Shown here: positions 16,680 to 33,541 of the stretch, piece by piece
How the letters are laid out: each line of letters begins with the position of its first letter
Position numbering within the stretch: position 1 is the stretch's first letter
From: a virus
DNA: 42,589 bases
Virus record (IMG/VR): IMGVR_UViG_3300009506_000073
Span: 1-42,589 of that record
Direction: 5' to 3' (one strand)
Program-made: the position numbers and the translations under genes
The notes under the pieces: generated by a model
Told to the model about the DNA's origin: nothing
The model's database searches: none
Seen by the model: the letters and a program-made list of their open reading frames with translations, nothing else

Positions 16680-17189
16680 TTATTTTCCTGTTTTCGCATT
16701 CACCAAGAAGAACGCCCCGGCAGGAGGGCCGAGGCGTCGACGGTAGAGCCGAATTTTTTCTTCTGTTCTATCGTTTGAAATAATGCCGATCAGAAGCGGG
16801 ACATCGAAGCGTTCCGCGCATGATCTTCCGAATTCGATCAAAGCTTTCGCATTTGACGACCGCCGATATTCTGGCGCGACATAGTTGAAAAGCTCTTCGA
16901 GAATGACTTCGCCCGAATACCACATGGACGAAATCTGCATGTAGATCATGCCCTCGATCTTGCCGACTGGTCCGATCACGCCGATGATCGCGCCGTCTTG
17001 ATTGACGCCCTGCATCATCTTCTGCGCGACCAGCGCCCAATCGACATTCGAGATGCCGTTCTCGTGGTGAAGAGCCCGGCAAAATTGCATGATCTGGTTG
17101 AAGTCTTCAGGAGAGGCAGAGCGGACGCGCGGAAGGGCATTCGCAGAAACCGGCGTGGCCTGCGTTCCATTCATCGGAATGTCGAGCAT
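16680..17189 (-). CDS. GNAT-family N-acetyltransferase, 169 aa
   Basis: Acetyl-CoA-dependent acetyltransferase fold: VRSASPEDFNQIMQFCRAL opens the domain (about 22-40), a central beta sheet follows (GAIIGVIGPVGKIEGMIYMQ), and the acetyl-CoA loop region is VAPEYRRSSNAKALIEFG (about 103-120). The substrate is unknown. Its start overlaps the preceding stop as TAATG, so it is made with virion proteins and comes just before the ejection proteins; GNAT genes at this place are known in several podovirus groups. Confidence 0.75.
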   Translation of the reverse strand: MLDIPMNGTQATPVSANALPRVRSASPEDFNQIMQFCRALHHENGISNVDWALVAQKMMQGVNQDGAIIGVIGPVGKIEGMIYMQISSMWYSGEVILEELFNYVAPEYRRSSNAKALIEFGRSCAERFDVPLLIGIISNDRTEEKIRLYRRRLGPPAGAFFLVNAKTGK

Positions 17190-18173: not shown

Positions 18174-20444
18174 CTATCTGCGCCCGTCCGGTGCGAAGCG
18201 GAACCGCAGCAGCCCGAGCCGCCAGAAGGAACCGCTATCAGAGCTGGAAACCGTGACCGAGATCTGGCGAGCCCGGATGCGGCAGTCGATATATTGCGTC
18301 GCCTGCGTCATCAGGAACGGCCCATATGTGACCGGCGTCTCGCCGGGCGTCTCGACCGCATTGATGGTGATCATCACCTGCGCGTCTTGATCGCCGCCAT
18401 ACGATCCCCACTTCATGTCCGGGATGATCTGGTCGACGATGAAGAAGTTCTGACCCTCATCGAGATAGAAGAATCCGGTCGTGAAGCTCGGCGTCAGCGG
18501 CTCGGTGTCCGCATCGTATCCGGTCTCATGCTGGTAAAGCAGCCCGGTATTGCCGCCGATGGCTATCGGTGCGCCGAGAACCGAGCGATCAATCCACGCA
18601 AGACGTGACATCGGTCCTGCATCCCAGGTGTTTTCGACGATGTTCAGCTTCACATATTTATCGGGATAACCCAGGCCGCCCGATGCGGATGGAAAGAAGA
18701 ACCACACCTCGGTGAAGTCGGTGTTCGATGCCGCGACGCATTTATGCGCGTTCGTTTGGTCGAGATCCTGAAAGACAAAATCCCAGACGGAGCAAGGCAA
18801 TGGCTGCACACCGCTTCCAGTATACATGAAGAAGTTGCTCTTCCCCATCCAGAAGACGCCATTTCCGAGCTGTGCCCAGGCGTGTTTCCCGATCAGGCCG
18901 CAATTCGAACCGATCTTGTTGAAGCTATAGATGAGCGGATAACCGAGATAAGTCATCGCCCAGCATTCAAGATCGGTCCAGATCAGGTTCCGGTTCGGTG
19001 TCGCGCCAGCCCCGACGATTTCCGATCCTGTCGGGATGCGGAAATTTCCGGCCTGCGTGGTGACTGTCGCGGTCCAGTTCGTGAAATCCGACACATTGCT
19101 ATAGGCCACCAGAAGCGGGTCTTGATAAATGCCGATGCCGCCGAAGTCGCGGGCGCTGATCGATGACCCGTAGGCAATGACCTGCTGCTGCGCCATGCTG
19201 ACGAACATGCCGGTGTTGAACAGCGGCGCGGTCTCGATGACGCTCATGTTCTGAAAGCCAGATGTCGGACCCCAGGAATAGATGCCGCCATTTTCAGCAC
19301 CGGCAAGAAGGATTTCGCCCCAGTTGTCGAGCGTCCAGTCTGTCACGACAAGCGCAGTGCCTTCTTGAATATCCGGCGTCGTGCCGCCAATGCCATAAGG
19401 CCCCTCGCCATAGTCGGCCAGACCGTAGCCAGAGCCGCCACCGCGCGGACCGAGCGCAATATAATAAGTCAGAGCCACCTGACCATCGTTCATGAACGCC
19501 ACTGCCGAAGAGGATGCAGCCTCATTCGCGGTAATAACGAAGACATCGGCATTCGTAACACTGGTGACGCTGTATCTTCCCTGAATGGTAATGCCGCCGA
19601 CCACTGTCGGAAGATCCAAGATCACATCATTGCCGACGCTCTGGGCATGGTCCTGAAGGGTCACGCTGACAGCAGATTCCCCGCTGGTCGTCGTGAACAT
19701 CGGAACCGCCGCGAATGACAATGTGCCCCCGGTGGTGTAGGGGGTGAACGTGCTGGTGTCCTCGATCTCAAAGGTGTTTGCGCCGGTATCCAGGTTCGTC
19801 ACGGTCTGGATCGTGCCGTTCACCTCTGCCATGCCGCCGACGCCGAAAATATAGACCAGATCGCCCTCGGCGATATTGTCCGCACCAGAATAAGTCACGA
19901 CACCGGGATTAGCCTGCGTAATGTCCGTGATCGTCAGGTTTGCCCTTGTCTTCGAAGCGTTCGCTTGCGCCTCGATGGTATAACTGGTGGCGCTGGTGCG
20001 CGTGGCGATGGAATAAAGACCCGACAGGATTATGCCGCCGATGCTGACCGGCGTGCGAAAATAGACGCTATCGTCCGGGGTCACATTGCTGATATTGGTG
20101 TCGGTGATCTCGATCGTGGCATCAGAGGCCGTGCTTTCGAAATCTGGGTCGTCTTCGGTTTCCAGCGTCTGCGGGGACAGTTCAGAGAGCGCGCTGTTCA
20201 AAGCGAACAGGCCCGTCGTGGTGCCAATCGCCAGCCGCTTGTTGTTATTCAGGTCCTGCCACGCATGCAGAGCCTTCCCTTCACCGTCGATGGCCAGGGG
20301 ATAGTATTTTTGCCAGCCGCCAAGTTTTTGGAACAGGCCAGCCTTAAAGCGACCATAGGTGATATCGACATATGCCGCCTTATCATAGGTGGCAGTCTCT
20401 TCGACATCGAGCCCAGGTTCGAGGCGGATTTCACCGAGCGGCAT
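18174..20444 (-). CDS. Tail nozzle / stabilisation protein, P22 gp10 or T7 gp12-like, 756 aa
   Basis: A large beta-rich protein of the size and style of podovirus nozzle proteins, which form the hexameric tube below the adaptor and hold DNA in the head. The N-terminus (GEIRLEPGLDVEETATYDKA) and the repeated short blades (FQKLGGWQKYYPLAIDGEG, LHAWQDLNNNKRLAIGT) suggest a beta-propeller, with an inserted beta domain at about 95-320. The C-terminal half has aromatic-rich strands (WTDLECWAMTYLGYPLIYSF). It directly follows a tail-tube-A-like adaptor, the T7 gp11-gp12 order. Confidence 0.75.
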   Translation of the reverse strand: MPLGEIRLEPGLDVEETATYDKAAYVDITYGRFKAGLFQKLGGWQKYYPLAIDGEGKALHAWQDLNNNKRLAIGTTTGLFALNSALSELSPQTLETEDDPDFESTASDATIEITDTNISNVTPDDSVYFRTPVSIGGIILSGLYSIATRTSATSYTIEAQANASKTRANLTITDITQANPGVVTYSGADNIAEGDLVYIFGVGGMAEVNGTIQTVTNLDTGANTFEIEDTSTFTPYTTGGTLSFAAVPMFTTTSGESAVSVTLQDHAQSVGNDVILDLPTVVGGITIQGRYSVTSVTNADVFVITANEAASSSAVAFMNDGQVALTYYIALGPRGGGSGYGLADYGEGPYGIGGTTPDIQEGTALVVTDWTLDNWGEILLAGAENGGIYSWGPTSGFQNMSVIETAPLFNTGMFVSMAQQQVIAYGSSISARDFGGIGIYQDPLLVAYSNVSDFTNWTATVTTQAGNFRIPTGSEIVGAGATPNRNLIWTDLECWAMTYLGYPLIYSFNKIGSNCGLIGKHAWAQLGNGVFWMGKSNFFMYTGSGVQPLPCSVWDFVFQDLDQTNAHKCVAASNTDFTEVWFFFPSASGGLGYPDKYVKLNIVENTWDAGPMSRLAWIDRSVLGAPIAIGGNTGLLYQHETGYDADTEPLTPSFTTGFFYLDEGQNFFIVDQIIPDMKWGSYGGDQDAQVMITINAVETPGETPVTYGPFLMTQATQYIDCRIRARQISVTVSSSDSGSFWRLGLLRFRFAPDGRR

Positions 20445-20447
20445 CTA

Positions 20448-21119
20448 TTAAGCCCCCGTCGAGCCGAATGCTTGGAACTTCTTCCGCATTTCTTCAGCGC
20501 TGGCCGAGGCAAGGCGCATCTGATAGTCGGATTCCCAGCTCAGAGCCATCTTGGGGTCATCGGCCTGCGATCCAAAATTGCGCATATAGCCTGAAGCTGC
20601 CACCATTGAGGCCGCCAGAAACAGGTCCGGCAGATATTGCGACAAAAATGTCGTGGTGTTCGATGCCGACAGCGATGCTGGCCGGATGGTGCCGATCACC
20701 TCGACCGTGAAGGCTGCGCCAGGGGGAGGGCCGAAGAGAACCTGCTGATCGGTCAGCGGCGCATATTTCGACGGAATGGTGGTGGCGCTCGCTGCTGTTT
20801 CAGAGGGCCACAGCAGATCGATCGCCTCGCGCGAGACCTTAGTCAGCGGCACCCGCTCATTGCTGGAATTAAAAATGTTGATCGATTGCACCGTGACGAA
20901 GCGCCCCTGATCTTGCGGCAGCGTAAAGCTGCGCTGATTGGCGCTTGTCGTGGCCGATGTGTCAGAAACGATGGTCGAAAGCAGGTCGAGGTCGCGATAA
21001 ATGCGCTGCTCGGCCTGATCGATTATCGTCGGCAAAATGATGACGAAATTTGTCTCGGTCGAGCTGATGTTCACCTCGGTCGAGAGCGCCGAGACGAATG
21101 TGGCGTAGGTGTAAGCCAT
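20448..21119 (-). CDS. Tail adaptor, T7 gp11-like, 223 aa
   Basis: The N-terminal helical part contains NFVIILPTIIDQAEQRIYRD, a typical start for the adaptor proteins that form a ring under the portal. A beta section follows (RSFTLPQDQGRFVTVQSINI) with the pattern IPSKYAPLTDQQVLFGPPP, then helices (LPDLFLAASMVAASGYMRNF). The length is close to T7 gp11 (196 aa). It is adjacent to the nozzle gene. A second adaptor-like protein lies at 27398, closer to P22 gp4. Confidence 0.7.
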   Translation of the reverse strand: MAYTYATFVSALSTEVNISSTETNFVIILPTIIDQAEQRIYRDLDLLSTIVSDTSATTSANQRSFTLPQDQGRFVTVQSINIFNSSNERVPLTKVSREAIDLLWPSETAASATTIPSKYAPLTDQQVLFGPPPGAAFTVEVIGTIRPASLSASNTTTFLSQYLPDLFLAASMVAASGYMRNFGSQADDPKMALSWESDYQMRLASASAEEMRKKFQAFGSTGA

Positions 21120-21349
21120 TAGCCTACTTCCTTCGCCAGGGCCTCATGCATGGCCATCACTGCTCGATAGATGGTTCGCGCCTCGCTTTCGGCCTTTATC
21201 GCCGTCAGCGCGCTACCTGAGCCGCCAGAGATGGCTGCGGCCATATGGGCGACGATCCGGTCTTCGCGGTCCTGCGCGGCTTCCTGGCGCTTCTGAGCGG
21301 TCATGCCGCCGTTCACCTGAAAGCGGACGTTGATCTGATGGTCTGTCAT
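21119..21349 (-). CDS. Hypothetical small late protein, 76 aa
   Basis: Begins MTDHQINVRFQVNGGMTAQK. A short beta start (INVRFQV) is followed by a helical body ending with an Ala-rich helix. Chained at both ends by TAATG overlaps between a structural protein and the tail adaptor, so it is probably a minor virion or assembly protein. Family not recognised. Confidence 0.65.
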   Translation of the reverse strand: MTDHQINVRFQVNGGMTAQKRQEAAQDREDRIVAHMAAAISGGSGSALTAIKAESEARTIYRAVMAMHEALAKEVG

Positions 21350-21741
21350 TACTGGATCTCGAAAACGCAGTTGCCGACTTGGATGGTCAGGCTGTCGCCG
21401 GTCGTCACATCCTTCTGCGTGACCTGTGCCGATGCCAGAAGGTTGCCCGCCGTGATCGCGTCATAAACGGCCACATAGTTTACCGAGGCGTTGCCGTTCG
21501 CATTGCTGGTGAAGGTGATGATCGCGTCGTTAACGGCCTGCGCCGAAGCTGCCGCTGCCATGGCCGTGGTCAGGTCGATGCGGTTCGATGATCCGGTGAG
21601 CGTGCTGATATTCTCGGTCCCGGCACCTTGCGGATCGCCGTTAAATGTCGTGATATAGCGCGTCGCGGTCGCTGCTGGATCGGCATTGCCGACCAGCCAG
21701 TCGAGCATCGCATTGCGCGGGGATGTCGTGAAAGCTGCCAT
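21349..21741 (-). CDS. Structural protein, small beta-sandwich type, 130 aa
   Basis: Begins MAAFTTSPRNAMLDWLVGNA. A helical start with NAMLDWL, then beta strands with YVAVYDAITAGNLLASAQ and GDSLTIQVGNCVFEI, a pattern of small phage late proteins near fibres. It lies three bases after the ANL2 start region's gene end and just ahead of the adaptor and nozzle. Likely a virion component; no more specific role can be given. Confidence 0.65.
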   Translation of the reverse strand: MAAFTTSPRNAMLDWLVGNADPAATATRYITTFNGDPQGAGTENISTLTGSSNRIDLTTAMAAAASAQAVNDAIITFTSNANGNASVNYVAVYDAITAGNLLASAQVTQKDVTTGDSLTIQVGNCVFEIQ

Positions 21742-21743
21742 GT

Positions 21744-22553
21744 TCAGTAATTCCTTTGCGCGTTGCGCCCGTCAACATAGAGAACGCCCCGATCGAAGCG
21801 TCCCCTATCGCCGATTTTGTACCAGCCGCCATCAAGCGGAAATTCGGTGTCTGATCCGAGATAGCCATCGGCCACGTAAGGCGTCTTGACTTCAATCTGA
21901 CCGTCGACAATCCTCACTGCGACATCATGGGCCAGCCTTCCGACCTTTCCATCAGCGATGCCGCCGCCATTCGAGAACGCTACCAGACTGACCTCTGACG
22001 CCCCATAGCAATTGATCACCGACACCTCGAAGGCTTCAGCAATCGTCCGCCTCTGCCCTTCCGTGAGCGTCTGACCGGCCAGAGAGATGCAGCGCAAGGT
22101 GCCTCGCTTCGGCATCGTCCCGGCGCGAACCAGCGCCATGGTTGCATCGAAATACGAGACCCAGCAGGTGACGCCATGGTCGTCGATGTAGTCGGCCACC
22201 CCGCGCGGATCATCTGTGTCGGCCCACGGCACCGCCTTCAGCCCAGCCATCATCGGGGCAAGCTGTCCAGCGATAATGCTATGCGAATGCGCGAACAGGC
22301 TGGTCGGCATCGTCACACGCATGTTGTCCATGCCCATGGCGGCGACCAGATTGGCGCATCGTCCTTTGACTTTGGGCCACGGCACGATCACACCCTTGCG
22401 CTTACCGGTCGTGCCCTTGGTCCATGTGATCATGGCTGGATCGCCTGAATAGGCCAGTGCCAGATCCATCAGCTCTGCGTCATCGATCTCGATGACCGCG
22501 CTGTCGCCCTCTTCCATCGCCTCGATCAGCAGATTGCCGACGAATGGCTGCAT
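21744..22553 (-). CDS. ANL-superfamily (AMP-binding) protein 2, truncated, degenerate motifs, 269 aa
   Basis: Core motifs of adenylate-forming enzymes in order: P-loop A3 as TWTKGTTGKRKG (43-54), A5 as NCYGASE (181-187, E187 the Mg ligand), A7 as WYKIGDRGRF (244-253, D249 the ribose ligand) and the hinge VDGRN (260-264), after which it ends. It lacks the first ~150 residues and the whole C-terminal lid with the catalytic Lys (A10). Compared with ANL1, the P-loop Ser is Lys (K46) and the A7 Thr is Ile. Start 22553 is chosen because it aligns with the ANL1 start; longer starts overlap ANL1. Clearly paralogous to ANL1 (for example DDHGVTC and LRCIS in matching places). Function unknown; adenylate binding or a scaffold partner are options. 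Confidence 0.85.
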   Translation of the reverse strand: MQPFVGNLLIEAMEEGDSAVIEIDDAELMDLALAYSGDPAMITWTKGTTGKRKGVIVPWPKVKGRCANLVAAMGMDNMRVTMPTSLFAHSHSIIAGQLAPMMAGLKAVPWADTDDPRGVADYIDDHGVTCWVSYFDATMALVRAGTMPKRGTLRCISLAGQTLTEGQRRTIAEAFEVSVINCYGASEVSLVAFSNGGGIADGKVGRLAHDVAVRIVDGQIEVKTPYVADGYLGSDTEFPLDGGWYKIGDRGRFDRGVLYVDGRNAQRNY

Positions 22554-22558
22554 CGGAA

Positions 22559-23398
22559 TTATGCGGACTTGCGACCCATCAGATAGAGCTTGTCGCGCTT
22601 GATTTCCGCCAGATCGCCAGTGGAATACCATCCTTCACCATCCACGGGCAGCGGGCCTTCGCCATAGTAACCAGAGGCAAGCCCAGAGCTTCGAACCTCA
22701 AGGACGCCGCCCGCAATCCTTGCCTCGACGCCATCGACAACGCGACCGACACAGCCATCGACCGGCTCTTCGCCATCTGAGATCGACACGATGCCGGTCT
22801 CATTGCTGCCATAGATATTGATCGGCGCGATTCCATAGCCATCACGAATTTCTCGGTAAGCCTCTGCAGTCATCGGATCGCCGACCGAAATGATGCACCG
22901 CAACGTCTTTTGTTTCGGTGTCGGAAAGCTGCGCAGCATGTAAATATGCGTCCCCGGCGTGCAAATCAGGCATGTGACACCCTGGTCATCCACCACCGGA
23001 AAGATGTTCGCCCCTTCTGCGTAAGTCCATGATGCAGCTTGGCCACCAGCATAATGCGCGGCAAGGCGACCAAGCACCGCGCCGCCGCTGTAAGACGGCG
23101 AGAGCGTGCTGAGCGTCACCGCATAGTTCTGATGGCCGATCGCAGCGACTGACATGCGGCATCTCGCTTCAACCGCAGACCAAGGCACATGCACAAGCTT
23201 CTGTTCGCCGGTCGAGCCTGACGTGATCGAAACGAGACCTGCCGCGACACCATGGTCAGCCTGAAGGGTCGGACGAAACAGATCTCGGAAATGCGCCTTA
23301 TAGCTACCAACAAGGCTGACCAGATCGCCAGCAGCCCAATGCGCCACAAGGCGATCTGTGATCTGAGGCCCGTCATCGAGAAGCTGAAGGCGCGTCAT
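22559..23398 (-). CDS. ANL-superfamily (AMP-binding) protein 1, truncated at the hinge, 279 aa
   Basis: ANL enzymes activate carboxylates as acyl-AMP. This protein has A3 SITSGSTGEQK (57-67), A5 NIYGSNETG (194-202, E200), A7 GWYSTGDLAEI (256-266, D262) and stops at the hinge (MGRKSA, 274-279). The nucleotide-binding residues look intact, but the usual N-terminal third and the C-terminal lid with the catalytic Lys are missing; full enzymes are about 500 aa. Its ATG overlaps the stop of the Gly-rich adhesin gene as ATGA, so it is co-translated with a tail protein, and a paralogue follows five bases later. Possible roles: modification or assembly of the adhesin, ligand binding on the virion, or a two-chain enzyme using a lid from elsewhere. 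None is shown by the sequence. Confidence 0.88.
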   Translation of the reverse strand: MTRLQLLDDGPQITDRLVAHWAAGDLVSLVGSYKAHFRDLFRPTLQADHGVAAGLVSITSGSTGEQKLVHVPWSAVEARCRMSVAAIGHQNYAVTLSTLSPSYSGGAVLGRLAAHYAGGQAASWTYAEGANIFPVVDDQGVTCLICTPGTHIYMLRSFPTPKQKTLRCIISVGDPMTAEAYREIRDGYGIAPINIYGSNETGIVSISDGEEPVDGCVGRVVDGVEARIAGGVLEVRSSGLASGYYGEGPLPVDGEGWYSTGDLAEIKRDKLYLMGRKSA

Positions 23399-25020
23399 GC
23401 GATTATGTATCCACGGAACCGCGCCGCATTGACTTGAAGATAGCTGATTACAATAATGCCCTGCCTGCCAACGCCACCAGAAAACTGCGTGCCGGTGCTC
23501 GTGTCGCCTGCACCGCCGCCACCGCCGCCATAGAGGCCGCCTTGACCGCCAGGGTTGCCGCCACCAGCAGCACCGCCATCACCACCGCCTGCGCCGCCGC
23601 CAGGGCCTGCAGTCGACAAGTCAGAGGTCTGCGTCCACCAGATCGATGGTCCGCCCGTTCCACCAGCCGGGCCATCACCGCCATTATTGTCAGAGCCGCC
23701 GCCACCACCACCATTCGTCCCCGCAGAGGCTGGGTCGCCATTTGCACCACTGCCGGTTCCGTCATATCCATTTCCGCCAGCGCCGCCATTGGTCGAGCTA
23801 TTTCCGGGAGCCCCGACTGACGAAAACCCACCATTTGAACCGCCGCCGCCGCCGCCACATCCCTGCGCTGCTGCAGCACCTGCGCCACCAGTTTTTCCTG
23901 CACCAGATGGACCTGCAGAACCGGCACCGCCGCCGCCGCCGCCGGACGTTGCATTGCCGCCATTTGCGCCTGCAGCCCCGGAATAAGTTACGACACCGAC
24001 GCTTGCCCCAGCCGTTCCGGCAGTCCCGCCTGTGATTGTGCCCGTACCATTTCCACCATCGGCCCCGACAGAGACTGAAGAGCCGTTCGAAATTGCATTC
24101 GCAAGGCTTGTGGCATTAAAGAATGAATTCCCGCCATTGCCGCCATTTGCGGTGCCTCCAGCGCCAACCGAATAGTTGATCGAGGCCCCTGGCGTTAGAC
24201 TGAAATTATGTCCAGATGCATATGCGGAGCTTCCGCCGCCACCGCCGCCAGTTGTCGACGGGGTATCACCACCACCGCCGCCACCGATGCATTCAACGCT
24301 GTTAGCAGCAGGGTCGAAATCATCCGGCACCGTCCATGTACCGGCCCCCGTGCTCGTCAAGAATACCGTTTGAGCTGTGCGGCTTCCTTGAGCCTTCAGC
24401 GCAATCGTGATGGCCACGTTTTCATCATCGCCGTCTGTCACAAAGGCAGATGGCGAGACGATGCCGTAAGCGCTGAACGGCTGCCAACCAATCATCGTTG
24501 TCGATGTGGAACCCGCAGTGCCCCCAGCCGCGATGAAAACAACATCAGTCGCGCCGGATTGCGTGACCGATGTCGCATTCACGTCGTCAAGGAAACCGCA
24601 GGACAGGATCGCGCCAGACCCAGCCTTGCCGATAATAGGCAAGGGCGTCGGATCACCTGTTGCCTGATAATTCACGACAGGCTGCTCTATAAACGGCCCG
24701 TTCACGATGTCGACGCCACGAAAGGTCAACACAATCCACGCCGAATCCTGGCTGCTTCCCGTCAGGGATACAGTCGAATCCGGGGTCGACCCCATGATTT
24801 TATACCAAACGCCGACACTGGGAACGCCAGCGGCAAGCGGACCAAAAACCGCATCATAAGGCGTCGATCCATCTGTCGGCGCAGTAAGCGCAAATGGACC
24901 GTCAACAGAAGCGACGACGATGACAACATCGCCTTCTTGCGGAGTGCCGGGAATGCTTGGCGTAGCAGAACCGCTAGTCGCAATTGCTGATGTGGTCGAG
25001 CCTGCAAGGGTAACAGCCAT
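23395..25020 (-). CDS. Glycine-rich tail adhesin, 541 aa
   Basis: Residues 1-210 are beta-rich (GDVVIVVASVDGPFALTAPT; WIVLTFRGVD). From about 245 to 525 it is dominated by poly-Gly and Gly-Gly-X runs broken by Ala, Asn and Ser, ending in GRQGIIVISYLQ. Gly-rich domains of this kind form packed polyglycine II helices in some phage adhesins (for example Salmonella phage S16 gp38) and show receptor loops at the tip; assignment to that class is inference. It follows the large fibre gene by three bases and is coupled by ATGA to ANL1. Confidence 0.75.
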   Translation of the reverse strand: MAVTLAGSTTSAIATSGSATPSIPGTPQEGDVVIVVASVDGPFALTAPTDGSTPYDAVFGPLAAGVPSVGVWYKIMGSTPDSTVSLTGSSQDSAWIVLTFRGVDIVNGPFIEQPVVNYQATGDPTPLPIIGKAGSGAILSCGFLDDVNATSVTQSGATDVVFIAAGGTAGSTSTTMIGWQPFSAYGIVSPSAFVTDGDDENVAITIALKAQGSRTAQTVFLTSTGAGTWTVPDDFDPAANSVECIGGGGGGDTPSTTGGGGGGSSAYASGHNFSLTPGASINYSVGAGGTANGGNGGNSFFNATSLANAISNGSSVSVGADGGNGTGTITGGTAGTAGASVGVVTYSGAAGANGGNATSGGGGGGAGSAGPSGAGKTGGAGAAAAQGCGGGGGGSNGGFSSVGAPGNSSTNGGAGGNGYDGTGSGANGDPASAGTNGGGGGGSDNNGGDGPAGGTGGPSIWWTQTSDLSTAGPGGGAGGGDGGAAGGGNPGGQGGLYGGGGGGAGDTSTGTQFSGGVGRQGIIVISYLQVNAARFRGYIIA

Positions 25021-25023
25021 TCG

Positions 25024-26820
25024 TCAGGTCTTCGTCACGAACAAGGTCAAAACAACGTGCTCTATAGTTGAAACGCTGTCGACATTAAAATAGAGGATGT
25101 CGCCAGCAGATACACTTGTCGTCCATCCCGTCAATGTGCTATCTGTCGACTTGTTCGTCGCCGATATTGTGGGGGGAGCACTTGCGGTTATGCTGTCGGA
25201 ATTGTCTGGTGGATAATTGGCGTAAGTATCCTTCCAAATGTCGATGACGATAGAGCCGGACTGATCAGCCAGCAGCGTGTTGCTGGTGATCGTGCAGGCG
25301 AATGGAACCTGAAGCCATCCTTGTATTCCAGTTTCGATCTCTGCGCCGCCGCCATCTATATCGGCAACAAGAGCCGCCGCCTGATAATTTGAGGATGCCG
25401 CGATCGTCGGATCGCCGGACACGCCATCGCCATCAGACACGCTGATTCCGGTGCCCGCCGTGATCGTGCGCGCCGCGCCGGTTCCTGCGCCCGTCCTGGC
25501 CCAGAGACCATCGTCGGTATTATCGGCCAGAGCCTGAAGGTCAGCATCGTAAGCCTGAACGTCGACACCGGGCTCAAGATCGAGGTTCTGCTGTGCCGCC
25601 GTGACATCGGTCAGGTCGGATAGATTGTTGGCTGCCAGAAGCGCACCGGCACCAGAAGACGCCAGGGAGCCACCCACGCCGCCGAACTTATTCGCCGTGA
25701 TGAAGGTCTGCGTGCCGTCTGCAAGGTTCGTCGCGCCCTTCTCGGCGATGATCCAGCCCAATGTCACCGCTTCATTGTAAATTGCGGGCGAGACGAACGA
25801 CAGCGTGCCGTCAGTCAAAGCGGCCTGCGCATCGGCGACATTGTTGTAAAAGGCTTGGCCGTAGAAGATGCGGATATTACCGCCAGAACCGGCGAACATC
25901 TTCACCGTGAAGACGGTGGCGCGTGTGGATGCGCCAGGGATGGCCGTAATTGTTCCGGCATTGTCATAGCTGCCGACCGGCAAAGACGTGATGTCAGAGC
26001 CAAGAGCGCCCGCCTGCGTCACCATGCGGAAGGTCGCCGGGGATTTTAGCGGATATTCCACCTCATGCGGCGAGATGGCGCTGGTATAGAAGTTCGCACC
26101 GGCCTGATAAACTTCGCCAGCGGCTACGGCGATCGTCAAATTGGTGCTTGCCGCCGAAAGGTCGAGGTCGCGCTTGATGAATCCCAGCGCACGGAACAGA
26201 TCCCAGATGCCAGGGCCATATTGCTGCACCGGCATGGGGATCGGCGTGCTGGCCGAATAGACATTCGACAGAATCGAGACGCGATGCAGCCAGATATAGG
26301 TCCGGTAATCAGCGTGCGAAGGCTCTGTCGTCGTATTCTGCAGCGTTCCGGTGTCGTCGATATAGAGATAATAAACATCGTCTGTCATGGACAGATCGAC
26401 ATCCTGCTGCGCCCAGGTTACGGCTGTATAGGTCGGATTTTCCGGGTCGGTATTGTCGAGAATGCCACCTTCGCCCGCCGCAATGCGGATGACGCCGCTG
26501 CCCTGGTCGGAGAGAGCGCCGCCGAACAGCACGCCGGTCGAGCGCGCCTTCAACAGAGCGCTATCGGTCTCGTCGAATATGGTCTGCGCGTCGCTGCCGG
26601 TCAGGACTTCGTAGCCGGTATTATCAACGCCGACCAGAGACGCGCCAGACGGGGCGCTGGTGGCCGCAAGCTGGGCGTCGGTCGGATAGTCGGTCGCGGT
26701 CTCTGCCGCCATGCTGCCGAGCGTGCCCTTCTTGGTCACACCGCCCTGCACCATGGGGACGAGTTCGCCGCCCGCGATTGTGCCTGCTGGCAGCTCGCTG
26801 ATTTTGTCGCCTGTTGCCAT
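25024..26820 (-). CDS. Tail fibre protein, 598 aa
   Basis: The N-terminus MATGDKISELPAGTIAGGEL is a common virion-binding start in phage fibres. A beta-rich middle with a conserved-looking section (YYLYIDDTGTLQNTTTEPSH) is followed by fibre modules DLEPGVDVQAYDADLQALAD and ITAGTGISVSDGDGVSGDPT, known from many tail fibres. A C-terminal beta domain (about 480-598) ends VVLTLFVTKT. It precedes the Gly-rich adhesin, so the two probably form one receptor-binding apparatus. Confidence 0.8.
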   Translation of the reverse strand: MATGDKISELPAGTIAGGELVPMVQGGVTKKGTLGSMAAETATDYPTDAQLAATSAPSGASLVGVDNTGYEVLTGSDAQTIFDETDSALLKARSTGVLFGGALSDQGSGVIRIAAGEGGILDNTDPENPTYTAVTWAQQDVDLSMTDDVYYLYIDDTGTLQNTTTEPSHADYRTYIWLHRVSILSNVYSASTPIPMPVQQYGPGIWDLFRALGFIKRDLDLSAASTNLTIAVAAGEVYQAGANFYTSAISPHEVEYPLKSPATFRMVTQAGALGSDITSLPVGSYDNAGTITAIPGASTRATVFTVKMFAGSGGNIRIFYGQAFYNNVADAQAALTDGTLSFVSPAIYNEAVTLGWIIAEKGATNLADGTQTFITANKFGGVGGSLASSGAGALLAANNLSDLTDVTAAQQNLDLEPGVDVQAYDADLQALADNTDDGLWARTGAGTGAARTITAGTGISVSDGDGVSGDPTIAASSNYQAAALVADIDGGGAEIETGIQGWLQVPFACTITSNTLLADQSGSIVIDIWKDTYANYPPDNSDSITASAPPTISATNKSTDSTLTGWTTSVSAGDILYFNVDSVSTIEHVVLTLFVTKT

Positions 26821-27397: not shown

Positions 27398-28099
27398 CTA
27401 CATCCTGAAATAACCGGCCATGCTCGGCAGGATCTGCAGCGGCGTGTCTTCCTGATCCTCGGCTGCCGCCAGGGTGAAGCGTTTCTCGAAGAGCTGTTCG
27501 AGCTTGTCGGCCTTTCCTGGCTCTTTCGGCGGATAGATCAGAGCCAGCCGCGCGGCCATGCCGGTCGCGATGGCGTCGAGGAACCGATAGGGGCTATCGA
27601 AATTGTAGCCAGACGACAGGTTCACATCCTGCATCTGCCGGAAGGTCTGCATCTTCAGCGTGTATGTCGCTGTGTCATCCGGCACCGGCCAAAGCGTGAT
27701 CGTCGGCGTCTTCTGCAGGTCGAACCAGTAGCTGGTCGGAGGCCCGGACTGTCCCTTATTCGCCAGTGAGGCATAATCGACCGCGCTCATGGGACCGATC
27801 ACCCGGCTGGTCGTCACGCCGCTGGCGGTCGTGTCGATGTAGGCGATGGCGATCGAGACCGTGCGCGCATCGAGGGTATAATCGGGATCGTCGGCGGTCA
27901 GGACTTGGCTCTGCGTTTCCAGCGCCCAGCGGTTCGGATTCCTGTTGGTGAAGTCCACCATCAGCATATTCGCCTGCATATAAGCGTCTTCGAGGTGCTG
28001 CTGCGTGATGTCAGGCCGCCGCACGCCGATCATGCCATATGCATTCAGAATGATGTCCGCCGCTGACGGCGCGAAGGTATAGGTGCCCGTGCTTGCCAT
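27398..28099 (-). CDS. Head completion / adaptor protein, P22 gp4-like, 233 aa
   Basis: Features of the portal-binding adaptor family: helical N-terminus DIILNAYGMIGVRRPDITQQ, HLEDAYMQANMLMVDFTNRN, a beta section with DYASLANKGQSGPPTSYWFD and PTITLWPVPDDTATYTLKMQ, then helices ending LALIYPPKEPGKADKLEQLF. The adaptor binds the portal after packaging and gives the docking site for the tail. It comes four genes after the major capsid protein. Family assignment is by pattern, not by search. Confidence 0.75.
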   Translation of the reverse strand: MASTGTYTFAPSAADIILNAYGMIGVRRPDITQQHLEDAYMQANMLMVDFTNRNPNRWALETQSQVLTADDPDYTLDARTVSIAIAYIDTTASGVTTSRVIGPMSAVDYASLANKGQSGPPTSYWFDLQKTPTITLWPVPDDTATYTLKMQTFRQMQDVNLSSGYNFDSPYRFLDAIATGMAARLALIYPPKEPGKADKLEQLFEKRFTLAAAEDQEDTPLQILPSMAGYFRM

Positions 28100-33145: not shown

Positions 33146-33541
33146 TTAGTAAATCCATTCCGGGTTCTGGCAGCGCCCGACGATGTGATCGTCATAGACG
33201 AAGCGGCACGACACACCGCAAATGCCAGCTTCCCAGGTGTCGGCGGCGCGGTAGAACACCCATTCGCCAATTTCCGGCACGACCGGGACTTCTTCATTCT
33301 CGAACTTGAACGCGATCGGGCCGAACTTCAGCACGAGGCCGACCTTACCCTGGTAACGGCTTTCTTCGATGTTGCGATCTGGCCGAATAATGCCGCCCGC
33401 CGTCCGTTCCGGGGTCACATAGGTGGCCACCAGCACACGATTGCGGAATACATCAATGCCCGGCAGAGCATTCGCGGTCGCTTCCAGAATAGCGGCGCGC
33501 TGATCGGAAGCTGCCGCGAACTTTTGCAGATCAAGTTTCAT
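33146..33541 (-). CDS. GroES-like co-chaperonin, 131 aa
   Basis: GroES-type fold pattern: strand RVLVATYVTPERTAGGII (35-52), where TAGGII corresponds to the SAGGIVL mobile-loop end that binds GroEL; then GKVGLVLKFGP (65-75), EIGEWVFYRA (90-99) and a closing strand CRFVYDDHIVGRC. Phage versions such as T4 gp31 replace host GroES so that GroEL can fold the capsid protein. It lies in the head cluster between portal and scaffold, the right place for a capsid-folding factor. It is longer than GroES (97 aa) because of an N-terminal helix and a Trp-containing insert (DTWEAGICGV). Confidence 0.8.
   Translation of the reverse strand: MKLDLQKFAAASDQRAAILEATANALPGIDVFRNRVLVATYVTPERTAGGIIRPDRNIEESRYQGKVGLVLKFGPIAFKFENEEVPVVPEIGEWVFYRAADTWEAGICGVSCRFVYDDHIVGRCQNPEWIY

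Follow-up and report, generated by a model that had tools for sequence, protein, structure and literature searches.

Lidless ANL-fold proteins encoded behind a phage adhesin suggest an enzyme family that may decorate the host-binding fibre

Two adjacent ANL cores in a phage tail operon

The window (the whole stretch of DNA analysed) is a 42.6 kb virus contig from IMG/VR. It belongs to a tailed, probably podovirus-like phage, since its other genes encode a DnaB helicase, RusA, a terminase, a portal, DNA-ejection proteins and a primase-polymerase. Two adjacent genes, referred to as ANL1 and ANL2, encode proteins related to the ANL superfamily (acyl-CoA synthetases, NRPS adenylation domains and luciferases; PF00501). 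They are located in a minus-strand operon with the order tail fibre, Gly-rich adhesin, ANL1, ANL2, gp80-like protein, an ORF of 76 aa and an SU10-type adaptor. The relevant features are as follows.

25024..26820, minus strand: tail fibre with a widespread C-terminal tip (phrog_35197)
23395..25020, minus strand: Gly-rich adhesin, 541 aa; its N-terminal 210 aa are related to L130:10346-10996
22559..23398, minus strand: ANL1, lidless ANL core, 279 aa (ORF, PF00501, AlphaFold2, Foldseek)
23198..23224, minus strand: ANL1 motif A3, TSGSTGEQK, residues 59-67
22799..22801, minus strand: ANL1 A5 glutamate, E200
22613..22615, minus strand: ANL1 A7 aspartate, D262
22571..22576, minus strand: ANL1 hinge Gly-Arg, residues 275-276, followed by 3 residues and the stop
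22554..22631, minus strand: 26 extra ANL2 codons if translation starts at 22631, nearly all in another frame of ANL1
21744..22553, minus strand: ANL2, lidless ANL core of 269 aa when read from the Met at 22553; the ORF can be opened at 22631
22395..22421, minus strand: ANL2 motif A3, TKGTTGKRK, residues 45-53, with K46 for Ser
21993..21995, minus strand: ANL2 A5 glutamate, E187
21807..21809, minus strand: ANL2 A7 aspartate, D249, with I247 in place of the preceding Thr
21765..21770, minus strand: ANL2 hinge Gly-Arg, residues 262-263, followed by 6 residues and the stop
21349..21741, minus strand: gp80-like fibre protein (PF23140)
20448..21119, minus strand: SU10-type adaptor, downstream edge of the variable host-recognition slot

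The variable host-recognition region is flanked by two SU10-adaptor-like genes (27398-28099 and 20448-21119). Elsewhere in the window, a virion structural protein (18174-20444; phrog_3287) contains an E1_FCCH-like domain (PF16190, E 3e-11), and most relatives retain the GNAT-like acetyltransferase gene (16680-17189; phrog_1249) in their structural operon. A GroES-like co-chaperonin is encoded upstream of the capsid genes (33146-33541) and also in the relatives L083, L084 and L092.

ANL1 and ANL2 are true paralogues, as they are 36% identical to each other (139 bits). An earlier note on this DNA had described them as paralogues which carry motifs A3, A5 and A7 and both end at the hinge, and the open reading frames, the PF00501 matches, the AlphaFold2 models, the Foldseek searches and the motif positions agree on this description. 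Both proteins match PF00501 well over the cut-off and only across its second, A3-A7 half (ANL1, E 9.4e-19, profile positions 170-384 of 384; ANL2, E 5.4e-22, positions 157-384). AlphaFold2, run on an alignment with 50 cellular homologues (L214-L276), gave confident cores with a pLDDT of mostly 92-98, and the top Foldseek matches were ANL enzymes with probability 1.00 (E down to 2.6e-14 for ANL1 and 2.5e-16 for ANL2), namely MatB, MenE, oxalyl-CoA synthetase, FadD5 and McyG. An ANL core is thus predicted for each protein, and its absence, which would have spoken against the initial description, was not observed. The nucleotide-binding residues reported for ANL1 (S60-G64 within TSGSTGEQK, E200 and D262) and the changes reported for ANL2 (K46 for the near-invariant A3 Ser and I247 for the A7 Thr) were recovered, and the overlap between the ANL1 start and the adhesin stop (ATGA), proposed to couple the two genes, is real. 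The residues that are invariant in a 52-row alignment (A3 Thr, Gly and Lys, A5 Glu and A7 Asp) are all kept in both proteins; this conservation is partly circular, as the homologues were gathered by A3/A7 patterns, of which the A5 Glu is independent.

ANL1 and ANL2 share the core fold, motifs A3, A5 and A7 and the hinge Gly-Arg with the superfamily, at about 17-30% identity to its cellular members, but differ from these in lacking both ends. The N-terminal third with A1-A2 is missing, 58 residues preceding A3 in ANL1 and 44 in ANL2, and the lid (A8 after Gly-Arg, A9 and the A10 lysine) is absent, with 3 and 6 residues left after the hinge Arg. The lack of both ends had been noticed before. Thus, the PF00501 core and fold, A3, A5, the A7 Asp and the hinge Arg were found, whereas a lid with the A10 lysine was not. 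The lid domain PF13193 was not detected in either protein or elsewhere in the 42.6 kb contig, nor was the carrier protein domain PF00550. A position of A3 close to the N-terminus is also seen in the profile of PRK07824 (NCBIfam, o-succinylbenzoate-CoA ligase, 362 aa) and in AMP-binding proteins of Paracoccus and Thioclava (L209/L213); unlike ANL1 and ANL2, these retain the C-terminal region past the hinge. ANL2 and ANL1 scored 42.8 and 26.7 bits against PRK07824, below the family cut-off of 345 bits, and L209/L213 did not group with the viral lidless proteins in the tree described below.

In known ANL enzymes the hinge GRxD parts the core from the lid, the A10 lysine of the lid supports adenylation and the A8 lysine supports transfer (PMC11253843). 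Laboratory N-domains without a lid, PqsA (5OE3) and NpsA (6VHW), are stable enough to crystallise (PMC11253843), so the ANL fold can stand alone. These are engineered truncations with a full N-terminus, whereas ANL1 and ANL2 are lidless as native gene products.

A prophage relative and the inheritance of the truncation

A broader motif alignment, used to scan viral contigs, revealed a relative. This record, L278 (L299 and L300; IMGVR_UViG_2832641632_000002), is an integrase-bearing prophage with terminase and portal genes, and encodes a single lidless ANL of 265 aa which is 36% identical to ANL2 (E 9e-42). Its motifs A3, A5 and A7 are fully canonical and it ends with GRRK, two residues past the hinge Arg. 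The short N-terminus is conserved in all three viral proteins. In a tree of 58 rows ANL1, ANL2 and the L278 protein formed one clade (support 100/99, stem 1.26), apart from 50 cellular ligases. Among these 50 cellular homologues usually about 99-137 residues follow the hinge Arg (two shorter values fit cuts at contig ends and values of at least 410 fit multidomain proteins), compared to 2-6 in the viral proteins. Judged from these sequences, the members of a rare viral family inherited their lack of a lid, because L278 shares it, the three proteins form a well-supported clade and the cellular homologues run on past the hinge Arg.

The relative also bears on the start of ANL2. The ORF caller opened the longest ANL2 frame at 22631, within ANL1, and the stretch 22554..22631 shows no conservation in L278. 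From the Met at 22553, which the numbering in the earlier note had implied, the whole N-terminal stretch aligns with the L278 protein (GDS/GES, IEIDDAE/IDIDKAD, LAYSGDPAMITW/LAYKGEPALITW). Translation therefore likely starts at 22553, and the short N-terminus would then also be native.

Since both ends of a standard enzyme are missing, the pair might be read as decayed fragments of a former full-length ligase or as a frameshift artefact. The earlier note had named pieces of one broken enzyme as an outcome that would overturn its description; what was found instead is two open frames with 36% mutual identity, conserved with L278 at both ends, confidently folded, and no lid sequence in the genome. 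On the sequence comparison the reading as debris is already contradicted by L278, and we consider it extremely improbable.

Within the clade ANL2 and the L278 protein join at 100/83 with ANL1 outside, so the two genes of the window look older as a pair than the split between ANL2 and the L278 gene. A two-chain enzyme with one active and one regulatory subunit had been proposed; as an obligate enzyme of this kind, ANL1 would be the active and ANL2 the regulatory chain, each supplying the other's missing lid side. Adjacent, coupled paralogues with differing motif losses would suit such an enzyme. The proposal is weakened by the lone copy in L278, which branches closer to ANL2 than ANL1 does, and we regard it as very unlikely. 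A search for the same pair in other phages had been suggested; L278, the one close family relative found outside the window, has a single copy.

Other phage-borne proteins with an ANL fold were encountered. A short ANL of 231 aa (L282:5617-6312) starts at A3 and ends with GRVP, two residues past the hinge Arg. Its neighbour is a phage exonuclease gene and not a Gly-rich adhesin, and a J-like tail gene is present on the contig. In the original scan, the alignment to ANL2 was confined to the last third of this protein. Its placement in the clade of ANL1, ANL2 and L278 was unsupported; its very long branch joins the tree at another point, and it may be an independent truncation. BFVD contains four further ANL-fold proteins from uncultured phages, one of which (A0A6J5L770, 214 aa) could be a further short ANL. 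The other three (A0A6J5L563, A0A6J7WHT9 and A0A6J5L571) and those of L279 and L280 carry the fold at full or near-full length; the L279 and L280 proteins have the lid domain PF13193 and, unlike ANL1 and ANL2, were not seen behind an adhesin. The full-length ANL with a lid on viral contig L280 (5302-6549) has aminotransferase-like, oxidoreductase-like, carrier-protein-like (83 aa) and glycosyltransferase-like genes as neighbours.

Several searches yielded no further members, and statements of absence refer to these pattern-based or sampled searches. Scans for exact short peptides with one or two sequences found nothing in viral or genome contigs and are weak negatives, as they also missed L278. 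PF00501 was not found in 78 related virus records, many of which are fragments. The family profile, with few candidates scored per genome, detected only long open frames (523-1208 aa) in 385 sampled genomes from the Reyranella class and had no match at E 1e-24 in 369 genomes of the Burkholderia class. Matches to ANL1 and ANL2 in INPHARED were rejected, as both neighbourhoods inspected are bacterial: one match is surrounded by Acinetobacter amino-acid catabolism genes, and MT836749 is an unverified scaffold with bacterial genes. The inspected stretches of MT836749.1 and CAKLQH020000009.1, although labelled as phage, hold bacterial chromosomal genes. No description of lidless phage ANLs was found in open-access papers, in line with the initial remark that no such arrangement was known from a described phage system.

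An exchangeable slot behind the adhesin

The gene order around the lidless ANL was compared between phages. In L278 a Gly-rich collagen-like adhesin is followed by a protein of 158 aa, the lidless ANL and a GT4 glycosyltransferase, with ATGA overlaps. The capsid protein of L092 is 73% identical to that of the window phage, and in L092 a Gly-rich fibre gene is directly followed by gp80, representing an empty site. L086 has a Gly-rich adhesin, a small ORF, a methyltransferase-like protein (a reading of its sequence, with no Pfam match at E 0.001) and a GT4 which is 44% identical to the L278 GT4; behind its adhesin, L088 has a small ORF, a methyltransferase-like gene and a GT4 matching the last three genes of L086. 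In L130, a homologue of the N-terminal region of the window adhesin (36% identity, E 2e-29) is directly followed by a GT4 that is 69% identical to the one of L278. L139 has a fibre tip, a 253 aa protein with no detectable relation to the window adhesin, a methyltransferase-like protein and a GT4. In L104 a methyltransferase/glycosyltransferase fusion, both domains of which are backed by Pfam, follows a fibre-like protein.

Because GT4 and methyltransferase-like genes hold a like place in these relatives and the slot is empty in L092, the lidless ANLs, as far as gene order tells, fill a slot for modifying enzymes that follows the adhesin and whose content is exchangeable. In the window, a gene for a putative enzyme, exchangeable among relatives, lies in the structural operon immediately 3' of the adhesin, whereas a glycosyltransferase was not found in this cassette. 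GT4 genes are present in L278, L086, L088, L130, L139, L132 and L134, and no GT4 homologue was found in the window; the L278 GT4 had no match at E 1e-30 in the 385 genomes of the Reyranella class. For the ANLs of the window, a link with glycosylation is inferred by analogy of position. The cultured cyanophage S-CAM7 has a GT4 of the L278 family and a 2OG-Fe(II) oxygenase among its tail-fibre genes; unlike in the window and L278, no ANL is annotated in the stretch inspected.

Two further observations concern glycosyltransferases in these phages. The fusion in L104 (6968-8584) combines a methyltransferase, a family-2 glycosyltransferase and TPR, and is widespread in relatives (L063, L068, L073, L080 and L105-L107). 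The structural operon of L278 encodes an MptE-like (PF01973) protein, a GT8-like protein and the GT4, all three in common with L130, which suggests that the set is a virion glycosylation system.

Possible roles of the lidless proteins

The best explanation, to which we give an even chance, is that ANL1, ANL2 and the L278 protein are a rare viral family of lidless ANLs in the post-adhesin slot which bind ATP or an acyl-adenylate and help to modify the adhesin or its glycan. ANL1 and ANL2 would bind ATP or acyl-adenylate and activate a small acid, either a carboxylic or an amino acid, for transfer onto the adhesin itself or a glycan that it bears; the role of the lid would fall to the sister chain or to the acceptor protein. 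ANL1 is the more canonical protein; ANL2, with two motif residues changed, may work more slowly, have a specialised role or act as a helper. The outcome would be an altered adhesin surface, which could affect host range, stability or evasion. Modification of the adhesin had been among the initial hypotheses and gains weight from the glycosyltransferase and methyltransferase-like genes in the post-adhesin slot of related phages. Since Gly-Arg is kept and everything beyond is lost, any chemistry would be slow, would need the help of a further chain or would not go past binding; the missing lid and A10 lysine and the altered A3 Ser and A7 Thr of ANL2 appear to count against enzyme turnover.

These same losses would suit a re-use of the ANL fold without catalysis, either as a ligand-binding subunit of the virion or as a folding or assembly factor of the adhesin next to its client. 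Genes for tail-fibre chaperones often sit right behind their fibre gene, and ANL1 directly follows the adhesin. Such a role, which we consider unlikely, is at odds with the small protein that L278 encodes separately between its adhesin and its ANL, the fully canonical A3, A5 and A7 of the L278 protein, the ranking of the nucleotide-site residues among the best conserved of the family, and the enzymes encoded by neighbouring slot genes in relatives.

The proteins might also act on the host surface or metabolism instead of the adhesin, for example in lipopolysaccharide acylation or superinfection exclusion. Small metabolites are the usual substrates of ANL enzymes, lysogenic conversion is possible for the integrase-bearing prophage L278, and the full-length ANL of L280 lies near aminotransferase-like, carrier-protein-like and glycosyltransferase-like genes. 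However, the ANL genes of both the window and L278 lie within the structural operon, with stop/start overlaps with genes of the adhesin region, and the window phage has no detected carrier protein. We judge an action on the host to be rather improbable.

ANL enzymes are viewed as machines of two domains, with both half-reactions driven by the swinging of the lid. A naturally occurring family which is cut exactly at the hinge and keeps its nucleotide site would test what the core catalyses alone. The single copy in L278, in a like place behind the fibre and beside a sugar-attaching enzyme, suggests that phages have an enzyme family, so far unrecognised, whose members may add chemical decorations to the host-binding fibre. 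The position behind adhesins points to a little-explored chemical modification of receptor-binding proteins, which could affect host recognition. A more specific version of adhesin modification, which we put forward tentatively and with more doubt than belief, is that a dedicated phage family of natively lidless ANLs acylates or aminoacylates its own receptor-binding adhesin or the glycan on it, with the client replacing the catalytic lid. If true, host-recognition proteins of phages would have a new kind of post-translational modification, and the ANL fold a new way of working.
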